In this document: piece by piece, positions 2,109 to 6,858 of the stretch
Numbering within the stretch: position 1 is the stretch's first letter
Layout: each line of letters opens with the position of its first letter
Origin: Olsenella sp. KH3B4
Lineage (GTDB): Bacteria > Actinomycetota > Coriobacteriia > Coriobacteriales > Atopobiaceae
Reading direction: 5' to 3'
Length of the DNA: 64,000 bases
Assembly: GCA_900111695.1 (NCBI GenBank)
Contig: FOHD01000006.1
Span: 121,471-185,470 of the forward strand
Notes under the pieces: model-generated
What the model was told of the DNA's origin: nothing
The model's database searches: none
The model's input: only the letters and a program-made list of their open reading frames with translations
Position numbers and translations under genes: made by a program

Positions 2109-2825
2109 GTGGACACCTACAAGGTGCTGATTGTCGAGGATGACGACCAGGCGGCAGGCACGCTCTCCGCGCACCTCGAGCGCTTTGCCGCGGAGCACGG
2201 AATCCGCTTCTTGGTGACCCGCCTTGCAACCGCCTTTGACCTCTCGTCCGCCGACGCAGTCGACCTCATCTTCATGGACATCGACCTGCCGGGCATCAAC
2301 GGCATGGAGGCGGCGCAGATGCTGCGCGAGGAGAACGCCACCACCCCGCTCATTTTCGTGACGAACCTCGCGCAGTACGCCGTGAAGGGCTACCAGGTTG
2401 ACGCGCTCGACTTCATGGTCAAGCCGGTTGGCTACGGCGACTTTGCTATGCGCATGGGGCGAGCTCTCCGCACGATGGAGAAGAACGCGACGCGCACCGT
2501 TGCCCTTCCCACCGCAGGCGGCACGCGTGTGGTCGACGTGCGCGACATCGCCTACGTCGAGCTCGTGAAGCACGACCTTCTCTACCACGTGACCGGCATC
2601 GACCATCCGCTCCGCCGACGCGGGAGCATAAGCGGCGCACGAGAAGAACTCCCGCAGGACCTCTTCATCACCGTGAGCCAAGGGTGTCTCGCCAACATGT
2701 CCCACGTGAGTGCGGTGCTTGGCGACTCCATTCAGCTGGATGACGGAACCTCGCTCTTCTTTAGCCGCTCGCGCAAGAAGCCCTGTCTCGAGACGCTCGC
2801 GCGCTACTTCGGGGGCACCGTATGA
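2109..2825 (+). CDS. LytTR-family response regulator (AgrA/LytR type), copy 1
   Basis: Residues 1-125 form a receiver domain: VEDDD near the N terminus, the phospho-acceptor D57 in FMDIDLPG, and the conserved lysine in FMVKPVGYGDF. Residues about 135-238 form a LytTR DNA-binding domain. I chose the GTG at 2109 because GAGGTG lies six bases upstream; the open frame extends much further back but into the divergent promoter region and without regulator similarity. The stop overlaps the next start (ATGA), so kinase and regulator are translationally coupled. It is transcribed away from the GH3 gene at 1-1961. LytTR regulators usually bind paired 9-bp direct repeats. The GH3 gene as a target is inference from position. 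Confidence 0.9.
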   Translation: MDTYKVLIVEDDDQAAGTLSAHLERFAAEHGIRFLVTRLATAFDLSSADAVDLIFMDIDLPGINGMEAAQMLREENATTPLIFVTNLAQYAVKGYQVDALDFMVKPVGYGDFAMRMGRALRTMEKNATRTVALPTAGGTRVVDVRDIAYVELVKHDLLYHVTGIDHPLRRRGSISGAREELPQDLFITVSQGCLANMSHVSAVLGDSIQLDDGTSLFFSRSRKKPCLETLARYFGGTV

Positions 2826-4213
2826 GCGATTGGAGCCAGTGGCCTGCCCTGGGAATGATGTACGCCACGCGGGCAACCCTGCTGTTCGTCGAGGTCATGA
2901 TTGCAGCTTGCCTGTTCGCGCATGGGCAGCCGACAAGGCCGCACCCCTGGCGTCGCACCACGGCGATAACCGCAGTGGTCTTTGCGGCAGGCATGCTAGC
3001 CCCAGTTTTCATCACGCTTCTGCAAGTCCCCGACGTATCGAACTATCATCCGGGGGCACTCGAGTATGGGCTTGGCTACGCCCTCGTCCCCATGCTTGTC
3101 GCATGCTCCCTGTTCCTCCTCGTCACCATCCCATCACTTCTTGCCTGCTTCGAGATAAGCCCATGGGCTGCAATCTTCTGCGCGACGGCAGGCTACTCTC
3201 TTCAGAATCTTGCCAGCGGGCTTGGAGAGACCGCCGGACTTCTCCTCATCGCCGCAGACGTCCCTGGCATAGTGCCGGGCGAGAACGCGTGGCTCACCAC
3301 GATAAGCTGCGCCACAACCTATGCGGTGGCCTACCTGCTCTTCATTGGGCGCATCGACTCCAAGGGCCTGGAGGGTCAGAGAAACCCGGCGATGCTCGCC
3401 ATGATCGTCGTGGTGATGTTTGGCATCATCGGCTTTGACCTTATCCTCAAGTACGTTGTCACCGTGAGCCTGCTGCTGCCCATCGTCCTATGCCTGCGCT
3501 TGTTCCACGTGCTTATCTGCGTCTTTGTGATCATCGCCGAGGTGGAGCTTGTTGTGGTGCGCCAGCTCTCCTCCGAGAAGGCCGCCACCGAGCGCCTCCT
3601 CGCCGAGCAGGAGCGCCAATACCAGCTCTCGCGCGAGAACATCGAAGCCATCAACATCAAGTGCCACGACCTACGCCACCAGATTCGCTCGCTCGCAACG
3701 GGCGACAAGGCCGTCGACAAGGCGGTGCTCGAGAACGTCGCGCAAGAGATTGACGTGTACGACTCCAAGGTACGCACCGGCAACGACGCCCTTGACACCA
3801 TCCTTTCCGAGAAGAGCCTGCTCTGCGAGAGCCGCAAGATCACGCTCACCTGCGTGGCAGACGGCGCAGCACTGGACTTCATGGCGCCTGCCGACCTCTA
3901 CGCGCTCTTTGGCAACGCACTCGACAACGCCATCGAGGCCGTAGAACACATGGATGACAGGACGAGAAGGTCCATCTCGCTCATCGTTCGCCGACGTGCC
4001 GGCGTCGTGACCGTCCACGTTGAGAACTACTACAACCCCTCCGCCAGTGCCACGCGCTTCAAGGACGGCATGCCCACGAGCACCAAGGGCGACCCACTCA
4101 ACCATGGTTTTGGTACGCGTTCCATGAGGTCGATAGTCGAACGCTACGGGGGCACTGCGGCCTTCTCTGCAGATGGGACAACGTTCAGCGTGGACGCCGT
4201 GATACCCGAGTGA
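2822..4213 (+). CDS. GHKL sensor histidine kinase (AgrC type), copy 1
   Basis: The first 210 residues hold about six hydrophobic segments. A helical linker follows, then the phospho-acceptor motif KCHDLRHQ (H282), the N box GNALDNAIEA and the G box NHGFGTRSM. This is the HPK10/AgrC arrangement of a polytopic sensor without a periplasmic domain and with a GHKL ATPase. It overlaps the upstream regulator by four bases, so the two form one operon. The family often senses peptides or small hydrophobic signals at the membrane, but nothing here identifies the ligand. A close paralogue lies at 15200-16522 beside another GH3 gene. Confidence 0.9.
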   Translation: MSDWSQWPALGMMYATRATLLFVEVMIAACLFAHGQPTRPHPWRRTTAITAVVFAAGMLAPVFITLLQVPDVSNYHPGALEYGLGYALVPMLVACSLFLLVTIPSLLACFEISPWAAIFCATAGYSLQNLASGLGETAGLLLIAADVPGIVPGENAWLTTISCATTYAVAYLLFIGRIDSKGLEGQRNPAMLAMIVVVMFGIIGFDLILKYVVTVSLLLPIVLCLRLFHVLICVFVIIAEVELVVVRQLSSEKAATERLLAEQERQYQLSRENIEAINIKCHDLRHQIRSLATGDKAVDKAVLENVAQEIDVYDSKVRTGNDALDTILSEKSLLCESRKITLTCVADGAALDFMAPADLYALFGNALDNAIEAVEHMDDRTRRSISLIVRRRAGVVTVHVENYYNPSASATRFKDGMPTSTKGDPLNHGFGTRSMRSIVERYGGTAAFSADGTTFSVDAVIPE

Positions 4214-4249
4214 CGGCCGGACCACACCGGACGCATAGCGGATATCTGT

Positions 4250-4281
4250 AATAACGATAACTAGCCAACGTCAATAACGAT
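4250..4281. repeat. Two AATAACGAT direct repeats upstream of the metN promoter
   Basis: AATAACGAT occurs exactly at 4250-4258 and 4273-4281, 23 bases apart start to start. The second copy abuts the proposed -35 box. Spacing of about two helical turns next to a promoter suggests an operator for an activator or repressor. The protein is unknown. Confidence 0.4.
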
Positions 4282-4310
4282 TTGAGATTCAGCTACGCCG
4301 CGGCTACAGT
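4282..4310 (+). promoter_or_regulatory. Sigma70-like promoter for the met leader/metNIQ
   Basis: TTGAGA (4282-4287) and TACAGT (4305-4310) are separated by 17 bases. The predicted transcription start, about 7-9 bases downstream, falls on or just before the ATG at 4319, implying a leaderless or nearly leaderless transcript. This is seen directly by motif only. Confidence 0.5.
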
Positions 4311-4318
4311 GTTGGCCT

Positions 4319-4396
4319 ATGAACACGATGAGCAGCACATACACCTTTGCGCTCATGCGCCAGCAGATGCCCAAGCCCGGGCACCCTCGTCGCTAG
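4319..4396 (+). CDS. Candidate Met-rich leader peptide of metNIQ
   Basis: This is a 25-residue ORF, ATG at 4319 to TAG at 4394-4396. Met is at positions 1, 4, 13 and 17 (core TFALMRQQMPK), four of 25 residues and far above the usual frequency. It has no Shine-Dalgarno sequence, but the promoter at 4282-4310 would place the mRNA 5' end at or near the ATG; leaderless translation is common in actinobacteria. It precedes a hairpin with a T-run (4403-4465) and the methionine transporter genes, which is the layout of a translation-dependent attenuator. The frame differs from metN. It could still be a chance ORF. Confidence 0.5.
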   Translation: MNTMSSTYTFALMRQQMPKPGHPRR

Positions 4397-4402
4397 CAGC
4401 CT

Positions 4403-4465
4403 GCCGCGTCACCCGGCACGGTCCGCCAGCGCGGAGGGACCGGGCGTCTTATCAGCGCGGCTTTT
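4403..4465 (+). terminator. Candidate attenuator hairpin before metN
   Basis: GCCGCG (4403-4408) pairs with CGCGGC (4456-4461), followed by TTTT (4462-4465). Inside, GGTCC (4420-4424) pairs with GGACC (4437-4441). CCCGG (4412-4416) can pair either with CCGGG (4440-4444) or with CCGGG inside the leader ORF (4377-4381). That choice is the mutually exclusive pairing expected of attenuation. No folding program was run. Confidence 0.45.
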
Positions 4466-4515
4466 GCAAGAAGCTGCGCATTGGCCGGCAAGCGGAATCG
4501 AGCGGAGTACAGGTT

Positions 4516-5254
<739 letters not shown>

Positions 5255-5262
<8 letters not shown>

Positions 5263-5926
5263 CCTCACGCCTTTCCTCAACCAGTACGGTGCGCTTCTCG
5301 GCGAGGGGCTCGTCGACACGCTGGTCATGCTGTTCGCCTCGACGGCCATCTCGTACGTCATAGGCATCTTCCTGGGCGTTGTTCTCTGCGTCACCTCACC
5401 GCGGGGCCTTCGTCCCATGCGCACGCTGAACGCCGTGCTCGGCTGGGTGGTGAACATCGGGCGCTCCATCCCGTTCATCATCCTGCTGGTCTCGATGTTC
5501 CCGGTCACACGTGCGCTCGTGGGCACCACCACCGGCGTGCAGGGCGTGATTCCGCCCCTCGTGCTCTCCACCACGCCCTTCGTGGCGCGCATGGTCGAGC
5601 AGTCGCTGGCCGAGGTCCCGCGCGACGTCATCGAGGCAGCGGAGTCCTGCGGGGCGTCCATCCCGCGCATCGTGGTCTCCGCGCTGCTCCCCGAAGCGCT
5701 GCCCTCAATCGTCCGCGGCGTCTCGATCACGCTCATCGCCGTGCTTGGCTACACGGCCATCGCCGGCGCAGTGGGCGCAGGCGGGCTGGGCGACATTGCC
5801 ATTCGCTATGGCTACTACCGCTACCAGGACGAGGTCATGATCGCCACGCTCGTGCTGATCATCATCCTGGTGCAGGTAATCCAGAGCACCTGCGACTTCA
5901 TCGCAAAGAAGATTGACCACCGCTAG
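5255..5926 (+). CDS. metI: Methionine ABC transporter permease MetI
   Basis: A 223-residue permease of the MetI family with about five membrane segments and the EAA-type loop that contacts the ATPase (EAAESCGASIPRIV, near residue 130). It starts with ATG inside the 3' end of metN (eight-base overlap), so synthesis is coupled. Length and motif match MetI of the MetNIQ importer of D/L-methionine. The solute-binding lipoprotein follows 74 bases downstream. Confidence 0.92.
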
Positions 5927-6000: not shown

Positions 6001-6858
6001 ATGCTCACCAGAAGGAACTTCATTGGCACCGGCCTTGCCGCACTTGCCGCAACCACCCTCGCCGCCTGCGGAAACTCTGGCTCCAGCTCGGCTTCGAGCA
6101 GCTCTGCCGCCAGCGACTCGGCGCAGAGCCAAACACTCACGGTTGCCGCGTCCCCCTCGCCCCACGCGGAGATTCTCAACAACTTTGCCGCACCCAAGCT
6201 CAAGGAGCAGGGCATCGACCTTCAGACCAAGGAGTACACCGACTACATCATCCCCAACCAGGTGACCACCTCCGGCGAGGTTGACGCCAACTACTTCCAG
6301 CACATCAACTACCTCAACAACTACAACGAGGAGAACGGCACCGACCTGGTGGGCGTGGCAGCCATTCACTACGAGCCGTTTGGCATCTACGCCGGCAAGT
6401 CCTCTGACCTGGCCAATATTGCCGACGGAGCGCAGATTGCCGTCCCCAACGACCCCACCAACGAGGGGCGTGCGCTCCTTCTCCTCCAGCAGGAGAACCT
6501 CATCACGCTCAAGGACCCCGACAACCTCGAGGCCACGCCGGTCGACATTGCCGAGAACCCCCACAACCTGCAGTTTGTTGAGGTCGAGGCAGCGGCCGTG
6601 CCGCGTCAGCTCCAGGACGTGGACTTTGCCGTCATCAACGGCAACTACGCCATCGAAGCCGGCTTCCACGTGAAGGACGCCGTTGCGGTGGAGTCCAAGG
6701 ACGGCAAGGCCGTTGAGCAGTACGCCAACTACATCGTGACCACGCCCGAGAAGAAGGACGACGACCGCGTGTCCGCGCTTGTCAGCGTCCTCACGAGCGA
6801 CGACTTCAAGCAGTACCTCTCTGACACGTACGACCAGGACGTTCTCCCCGCGTTCTAA
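6001..6858 (+). CDS. metQ: Methionine-binding lipoprotein MetQ (NlpA family)
   Basis: The signal begins with TRRNF and ends at a lipobox (LAAC, Cys23), so the mature protein is probably lipid-anchored outside the membrane; the paired arginines suggest Tat export. The rest has NlpA/MetQ features: QGIDLQTKEYTDYIIPN, YFQHINYLNNYN and AIHYEPFGIYAGK. It binds methionine and delivers it to MetI/MetN. A Ser/Ala-rich linker (residues 25-45) spaces the binding domain from the lipid. AGAAAGGA upstream is the ribosome site. A strong hairpin follows at 6882-6913. Confidence 0.93.
   Translation: MLTRRNFIGTGLAALAATTLAACGNSGSSSASSSSAASDSAQSQTLTVAASPSPHAEILNNFAAPKLKEQGIDLQTKEYTDYIIPNQVTTSGEVDANYFQHINYLNNYNEENGTDLVGVAAIHYEPFGIYAGKSSDLANIADGAQIAVPNDPTNEGRALLLLQQENLITLKDPDNLEATPVDIAENPHNLQFVEVEAAAVPRQLQDVDFAVINGNYAIEAGFHVKDAVAVESKDGKAVEQYANYIVTTPEKKDDDRVSALVSVLTSDDFKQYLSDTYDQDVLPAF

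Follow-up and report, generated by a model that had tools for sequence, protein, structure and literature searches.

Genes and features at the locus

The window, which is the whole stretch of 64,000 nucleotides that was analysed, contains a short Met-rich ORF (the leader ORF) upstream of three genes arranged in the order metN-metI-metQ (Table 1). MetN aligns to positions 1-240 of the 343-position TIGR02314 model, and no C-terminal sensing domain is reported in the domain search of the window protein. A previous reading of this DNA, made from the letters without database searches (hereafter the sequence-only reading), had described metN as lacking the C-terminal methionine-sensing domain, and the end of the match at model position 240 agrees with this description. 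The gene located upstream of the leader (2822-4213) encodes a GHKL-domain sensor kinase (HATPase_c_5; a weak AgrC match is below the cut-off). In several Collinsella-type loci (L031, L032, L033, L035, L100, L101, L114, L119 and L120), the MetN tblastn match begins at approximately residue 16-19, or approximately 190 nt farther from the leader than usual, which suggests an insertion near the N-terminus of MetN. Very long perfect or near-perfect inverted repeats, with a total length of approximately 90-100 nt, are located immediately 3' of metQ in L021 and L078.

Table 1. Features of the metNIQ leader region and operon in the window.
Feature	Position	Strand	Remarks
Promoter	4282..4310	+	-35 box TTGAGA, 4282-4287; 17-nt spacer; -10 box TACAGT, 4305-4310
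Leader ORF	4319..4396	+	25 codons and TAG (4394-4396); Met at codons 1, 4, 13 and 17
Helix L, leader strand	4342..4365	+	Spans M13; duplex with 4487-4514, -19.3 kcal/mol
Kept internal Met codons	4355..4369	+	M13, 4355-4357; M17, 4367-4369; AUGCCC, 4367-4372 (segment 1)
Mini-hairpin P1	4368..4383	+	4368-4372 (UGCCC) with 4379-4383 (GGGCA); excludes hairpin A
Hairpin A	4375..4445	+	4375-4380 (GCCCGG, leader codons) with 4440-4445 (CCGGGC); variable upper stem
Hairpin C	4455..4479	+	4455-4465 with 4469-4479; occupies the place of hairpin B of Collinsella-type loci
metN ribosome-binding region (RBS strand of helix L)	4487..4514	+	GAGCGGAG at 4500-4507
metN	4516..5262	+	Importer ATPase, 248 aa, TTG start; TIGR02314, 304.5 bits (cut-off 499.7)
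metI	5255..5926	+	Permease; best NCBIfam match NF008049 MetI, 204.3 bits (cut-off 212)
metQ	6001..6858	+	Substrate-binding lipoprotein; PF03180 above cut-off

The leader ORF is translated as MNTMSSTYTFALMRQQMPKPGHPRR. The sequence-only reading had proposed an ORF of 25 codons with four Met codons, and such an ORF is confirmed at this position. When the intergenic region 4214-4515 is dinucleotide-shuffled 2000 times and searched for an ATG ORF of 15-45 codons with at least four ATG codons, a short Met-rich ORF of this kind arises in 13 of the 2000 shuffles. It arises together with a TAnnnT box 7-8 nt upstream in none of them (0/2000).

The leader ATG at 4319 is located 8 nt past the -10 box, a distance that predicts a transcription start at this ATG or adjacent to it. 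The promoter itself is present as the sequence-only reading had given it, with TTGAGA, a 17-nt spacer and TACAGT just upstream of the ATG. Among 44 loci, TAnnnT is found 7-8 nt 5' of the leader ATG in 38, as compared to 3.1% of shuffled upstream stretches, and TTG is found 16-18 nt 5' of TAnnnT in 36, as compared to 0.3%, although this contrast is somewhat inflated in favour of the real loci because the ATG was picked partly by its -10 box. The promoter spacing in 38 of the 44 loci predicts that the leader mRNA is leaderless, and this prediction agrees with the earlier description of the ORF as apparently leaderless.

Distribution of the leader in the class

The window assembly and all seven other genomes of the genus (7/7) match the leader region. 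The DNA match of one genome (G006) is confined to 4337-4397, which corresponds to the leader ORF. A Met-rich ORF located 5' of metN, with an arm resembling GCCCGG after its last Met, is found in 47 of 80 metI loci (GTDB). Judging from their names, we take 69 of these 80 loci to be those of Coriobacteriia, 47 of them positive, and the remaining 11 presumably come from Bifidobacterium, Gardnerella or another actinomycete, with none positive. The upstream DNA is missing from one of the negative loci of Coriobacteriia (L045). The covariance model R1 gives no convincing match in the 33 negative metI loci, the nearest being two matches with E values of approximately 0.9.

The R1 model matches 46 of 197 genomes sampled across this class of gut-associated actinobacteria, once per genome and in three families (E ≤ 0.001). 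It also matches 19 of 138 genomes of one further family and 50 of 140 genomes of the window's own family (E ≤ 0.01 for both). All 30 class matches that were fetched, out of the 46, precede metN and contain a Met-rich ORF; 20 of them are new sequences. The two family searches provided 41 later loci, some of which repeat species already sampled. The ORF precedes metN in 39 of them; of the other two, one locus stops short of metN and the other lacks a recognised start. A second, weak R1 match in the window genome (E = 0.17) is located at the start of an apparently unrelated coding sequence. The first relatives were gathered with the motif M[PL].[PL][GE] or a close version of it, so that this first set favours the last Met codon, and L052 was added to it by hand. 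Examples of the leaders of relatives are MFTTAAHITMMMVMEMPSPGHF..., MKSAVAHITMMMVMEMPKPGHS... and MSFEFVHTMTNMMMHMLKPGLVG....

Conservation of the methionine codons

The leader core ALMRQQMPKPGHP is kept across the genus, with slight variation of the first residues. M13 and M17 are conserved in the window and in 7/7 other genomes of the genus. In contrast, codon 4 is a Thr codon in all seven, and M4 is therefore unique to the window within the genus. Thus, of the internal Met codons of the window leader, M13 and M17, at which the sequence-only reading had placed stalling, hold in the genus and M4 does not.

Among 50 representative loci, the leader contains on average 4.4 internal Met codons (range 1-7) and 31.4 codons in total. 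Codon counts were restricted to 24 distinct leaders, in which the last Met is codon 16. In these leaders, Met is found at codons 10, 11, 12 and 14 in 22, 21, 19 and 20 cases respectively. Most non-Met positions drift, while Ala-His at codons 6-7, at the GCACAU motif, is also kept. Codon changes are non-synonymous in 317 cases and synonymous in 113 cases, and no excess of differences is observed at the third codon position (227, 150 and 192 differences at positions 1, 2 and 3 respectively). The retention of Met beside drifting codons and the excess of non-synonymous changes indicate that codon identity is conserved, rather than the whole peptide. The length of the Met run varies by whole codons among the aligned leaders.

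The motif GCACAUA (4335-4341 in the window), located approximately 15 nt past the leader ATG, is conserved in differing reading frames among relatives. It is located in a bulge of the helix L described below in Collinsella-type loci, and similar letters are found inside this helix in some Eggerthellaceae. An Atopobium leader (L052:3007-3077) contains an in-frame UAG one codon past the last Met, with all arms of mini-hairpin P1 and hairpin A retained.

Local hairpins

Hairpin A is formed by the codons immediately following the last Met, and it encloses the leader stop codon in the genus of the window. Before pairs were counted, near-duplicates (L016, L017, L032 and L087) and genus copies (L008-L013) were removed. 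All 264 cells of hairpin A are paired over the remaining 44 distinct rows, a percentage that is biased because the 3' ends of the rows were cut by the motif search, and three of its six pairs are changed on both sides. The helix is also picked by RNAalifold, and hairpin A appears in many, not all, of 47 single-sequence folds. The arm is weak against shuffles in single sequences, with ≤10 of 200 shuffles being as good in only 9 of 44 loci. The case for this predicted hairpin is based on covariation, not on single-sequence strength. For P1, 96.8% of 220 cells are paired over the 44 distinct rows, and two of its five pairs are changed on both sides. One later locus (L150) contains P1 again, with GCUC paired to GAGC. 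Hairpin A and P1 share one arm, and are therefore mutually exclusive, and both contain changes on both sides.

In Collinsella/Olsenella-type loci, the leader stop is followed by hairpin B, in which 96.8% of 340 cells are paired over 34 distinct rows and nine of ten pairs are changed on both sides. In hairpin C of the window, the base is GCAC/GUGC in four sister sequences instead of GCGC/GCGC. The second hairpin between the leader stop and metN of four Eggerthellaceae loci (L039, L073, L132 and L133) contains a TATAAT-like loop (GTCTATAATA), which could be a second promoter or a chance resemblance.

The sequence-only reading had placed an attenuator at GCCGCG/CGCGGC followed by TTTT, and had proposed that CCCGG pairs alternatively with CCGGG in the leader ORF or with CCGGG downstream. 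All of these letters are present in the window (GCCGCG, 4403-4408; CGCGGC, 4456-4461; TTTT, 4462-4465; CCCGG, 4412-4416; CCGGG, 4377-4381 and 4440-4444). However, the 5' side of the terminator is GCCGCA in six of the seven other genomes of the genus and different in the seventh, without compensation on the 3' side, and the window fold assigns TTTT to hairpin C, as part of its 5' arm. Likewise, the CCCGG switch is not kept, as CCCGG is missing at that place in a relative of the same genus (L014). Among Coriobacteriia, the ORF and its Met codons are conserved; this terminator and this switch are not kept in the genus of the window.

Hairpin A was also considered as a terminator, and was rejected. 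Its tails (GUCUU, GUUUU, GCCUUC, GUUAUU or UAGCUUCC) contain no long U-tracts, and hairpin A would remain free with a ribosome located at the early Met codons, so that termination would occur in starvation. Pairing of the upper 3' side of hairpin A with hairpin B (pairing X) was likewise rejected, because it is near zero (0.0-0.7 pairs on average).

Predicted pairing of the leader with the metN ribosome-binding site

The 5' part of the leader is predicted to pair with the ribosome-binding site (RBS) of metN and to form a long-range helix, L. The leader-RBS duplex is equalled by ≤5% of leader shuffles in 33 of 61 distinct loci. When each leader of the 50 representatives, obtained by thinning 87 loci by shared 8-mers, is combined with its own RBS or with those of other loci, the own pairs give -17.97 kcal/mol and the swapped pairs -14.67 kcal/mol on average, and none of 20000 permutations is as low. 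The own RBS is in the top tenth for just 13 of the 50 loci, and 14 of them give no own-pair advantage over the swapped mean (L020, L023, L029, L039, L046, L049, L050, L051, L052, L073, L077, L139, L167 and L168).

The own-pair advantage is detected separately in the Collinsella/Olsenella-type set (n = 29; 0/3000 permutations) and in Eggerthellaceae (n = 14; p = 0.009, and p = 0.001 for metN positions -45..-16), with the caution that p-values near 0.01 require in a region-by-region set of 28 tests. The flanking regions are flat in the Collinsella/Olsenella-type set (p = 0.35 for metN -60..-31 and p = 0.47 for 0..+29), while over all 50 loci they lean slightly to own pairs (p = 0.023 for -60..-31, p = 0.052 for -15..+14 and p = 0.051 for 0..+29). 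The region of hairpin A gives no such advantage against the RBS over all 50 loci (p = 0.455). The co-variation of Eggerthellaceae is located in leader nt 13-30. Among the individual duplexes, UUCCGCU and CGAUGAUG-(A)-UGGUU of the L079 leader pair with the continuous GACCACAUCAUCGAGCGGAG, which includes the Shine-Dalgarno sequence, and CGUUUCGUAC pairs with GUACGAAACG in L149.

Helix L was also examined in an alignment (A3) of 49 rows. The genus of the window, Eggerthellaceae, loci lacking the RBS motif, L022, L028, L034 and L162 were not used for A3, and 49 of 53 references were aligned, with L032, L078, L167 and L169 omitted. In A3, 91.9% of 568 cells of helix L are paired, as compared to approximately 27-52% when the strands are slid (26.9-45.2% for shifts of ≤3 columns). 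Since there is little variation in most columns, pairing remains at 90.9% when the partners are shuffled. Changes on both sides are confined to one of its 12 pairs and are seen in 13 of the 49 rows, and the half of helix L that contains the Met codons exhibits no covariation beyond shuffles.

In the window, the L duplex (-19.3 kcal/mol) is more stable than the mean obtained with the RBSs of other loci (-13.0 kcal/mol), and ranks 4th of 50. In contrast, helix L accounts for just 1.8 pairs in the ensemble of the window, as compared to 18.1, 18.5 and 15.3 pairs in its sisters L015, L019 and L014 respectively. The species of the window may use another fold, its element may be in decay, or GC-rich RNA may be poorly handled by the energy model.

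Folding with a modelled ribosome

Fifty loci were folded with a ribosome footprint extending from -18 to +12 of the A-site. The mean number of leader:RBS pairs is 11.8 without a ribosome and falls to 1.45 when the footprint is placed on the first Met of the run. It is 4.6 for the last Met and 10.5 for the stop codon. Thus, a modelled ribosome at the first Met strips helix L, which indicates that the Met run is located where a stalled ribosome would cover the leader strand of helix L, whereas a ribosome at the stop codon barely disturbs it. The mean exposure of the Shine-Dalgarno sequence upon modelled stalling increases from 0.286 to 0.375, a gain that is modest because of competing folds. The change in exposure of the RBS exceeds 0.05 upward in 23 and downward in 8 of the 50 loci. 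An earlier accessibility test with a cruder definition of the RBS, from which near-duplicates and L031, L032, L033 and L035 (metN start far off) were omitted, gave little difference between the states.

Proposed mechanism and alternatives

Comparison among relatives shows that the ORF, its Met codons, the promoter spacing and the predicted hairpins A, P1 and B are conserved, and that the leader co-varies with the RBS. We consider that the element is probably a Met-responsive leader-peptide attenuator of metNIQ, which acts mainly on translation. According to this mechanism, the transcript would begin at the leader ATG, as judged from the promoter, and the RNA would fold into the long-range helix L and two hairpins, A and either B or C. 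In helix L, the metN RBS would be hidden by pairing with the 5' portion of the leader, which usually includes the Met codons. When Met-tRNA is ample, ribosomes would traverse the leader and leave, helix L would close, and metN would be poorly translated. When Met-tRNA is short, a ribosome would wait on a Met codon of the run, and its footprint would cover the leader strand of helix L, so that the RBS becomes accessible and the importer is produced. Ribosome stalling, release of the RBS and a response to methionine are the steps that we infer. The sequence-only reading had likewise proposed ribosome-mediated control by methionine. The conserved Met-rich ORF and the mutually exclusive pairings are consistent with this general idea, but its particular terminator, its CCCGG switch and M4 are not supported by the comparison. 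The output with the best support is occlusion of the metN RBS, rather than termination.

According to one reading, towards which we lean only slightly, the element is a translational attenuator for methionine whose Met codons are placed in the strand antisense to the metN RBS. One stalled ribosome would then both sense the shortage and open the RBS, and this logic would have been kept across three families of the class while the pairing sequences were replaced. Two further points stand against the translational account. Hairpin A, the most universal element, is given a mere spacer role in it, and severe methionine shortage should lower initiation at the leader as well, which would let helix L close.

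Transcription attenuation, in which the leader ribosome selects between an antiterminator and a terminator, is the main alternative, or an additional layer in Collinsella-type loci, and we regard it as rather unlikely. In its Collinsella-type version, the competitor of hairpin B is a hairpin T (GGCGGG...CCCGCC with the pyrimidine tail UUCUU), and a ribosome at the stop codon covers hairpin B, so that hairpin T forms and transcription is terminated. The strong support for hairpin B, with changes on both sides in nine of its ten pairs, favours this version, as does the position of the stop codon just before hairpin B, 8 nt past hairpin A in 32 of 40 loci and 5 nt past it in 2 of 40. Forty of 42 loci were scored in the folding and stability tests of hairpins B and T (L019 and L078 were skipped), and 38 were aligned for the covariation counts (L034 and L075 were additionally skipped). 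A modelled ribosome at the stop codon exchanges hairpin B (from 6.1 to 1.1 pairs on average) for hairpin T (from 2.0 to 4.6 pairs), but hairpin B is covered by construction in this test. Hairpin T itself exhibits no covariation (0/6 pairs changed on both sides, no measure above shuffles) and barely exceeds shuffles in stability (mean z = -0.45; 2 of 40 loci with p ≤ 0.05). Some hairpins located after metQ in these genomes have tails like that of hairpin T, and an Atopobium locus (L023) contains a second hairpin with a U-rich tail. However, inspection by eye finds no clear U-tract 3' of hairpin C of the window, and such a tract is rare among the T-like hairpins found in Eggerthellaceae and Olsenella-type loci. 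Transcription attenuation also leaves the co-variation of the leader and the RBS unexplained.

It is improbable that the element is a ligand- or protein-binding RNA, S-box-like or other, in which the Met codons are incidental. The strong structure (hairpins A and B) and the conservation of nucleotides such as GCACAUA in differing frames speak for such an RNA, but Met codons are kept beside drifting codons and the length of the Met run shifts by whole codons. In addition, no Rfam family matches the element, either in the window or in 12 relatives that were searched in full. The S-box (RF00162) has no match in the window or in the genome, and the T-box (RF00230) has none in the window at the gathering score; elsewhere in the genome (G000), three weak T-box matches fall short of the curated threshold (C15:73304-73508, C13:192510-192754 and C14:109084-109152). 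The sequence-only reading had set its proposal against the usual S-box and T-box RNAs, and neither of them is found at the locus. Still less probable is an element that does not sense methionine, in which the ORF either encodes a functional small protein or arises as a side effect of an AUG-rich RNA helix. The partners of the AUG repeats are CAU repeats adjacent to the RBS, so that AUG could be kept for pairing, and the ORF has its own predicted leaderless start. However, most non-Met residues are poorly conserved, and the later leaders of Eggerthellaceae still hold 3-6 Met codons although co-variation in this family is found in leader nt 13-30. The element also precedes metN in 30/30 class loci and in 40/41 later loci, the remaining one of which ends before metN.

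Comparison with known systems

Methionine is usually sensed via S-box or T-box RNAs or repressors, and amino-acid attenuators are classically those for Trp, His, Phe, Thr, Leu and Ile/Val. In the classical trp/his/leu and ermC-type attenuators, the position of the leader ribosome selects the RNA fold, and the ermC type frees an RBS. The metN leader would resemble them in that the position of the ribosome on a leader ORF decides between alternative folds. It would differ from them in its signal, methionine, of which starvation also touches initiation, in its long-range helix that closes a multiloop, and in that it is not induced by an antibiotic. The sequence-only reading had remarked that this mechanism was not known as described. 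In agreement with this remark, no published Met-codon leader upstream of metN, and no published Met-codon attenuator, was found in the literature searched, which missed most subscription papers. As proposed, the metN leader would be a variant of ribosome-mediated attenuation that uses Met codons. Since methionine shortage also touches initiation, a Met-codon attenuator gives a testable prediction of how shortage at initiation and shortage at elongation are kept apart. If the proposal is true, it provides a regulator of methionine uptake for Coriobacteriia such as Collinsella, Olsenella and Slackia. The co-variation of the leader-RBS helix offers a ready design for compensatory mutations.

Three published systems are related to this proposal. 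In the passages that describe them, the leaderless poly-cysteine uORFs of mycobacteria are reported to be amino-acid-responsive attenuators (PMC4633059, PMC9031893). They are the nearest system for the leaderless start, and resemble the metN leader in that a short ORF without a 5' leader contains codons for the operon's own amino acid, but contain contiguous Cys codons and are located upstream of other genes, as far as they are described in PMC4633059. The ilvB-II motif of Corynebacterium, as outlined in PMC10272879, is similarly a structured RNA with an embedded uORF rich in the amino acids of its operon, but it is assigned there to transcription attenuation and to branched-chain amino acids. 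The nearest published idea that we found is the LEU element predicted for actinobacterial leuA, in which a run of leucine codons pairs with the Shine-Dalgarno box (PMC1262725). The authors of this prediction, in their account of the element, doubted classical attenuation and favoured a regulatory protein, and they report having seen no conserved RNA structure 5' of methionine operons (PMC1262725). As portrayed in that account, the LEU element and the metN leader both consist of a short ORF with a run of codons for the relevant amino acid, which would pair with the RBS of the first gene. They differ in that the former involves leucine, leuA and a predicted pseudoknot (PMC1262725), whereas the latter involves methionine and metN.
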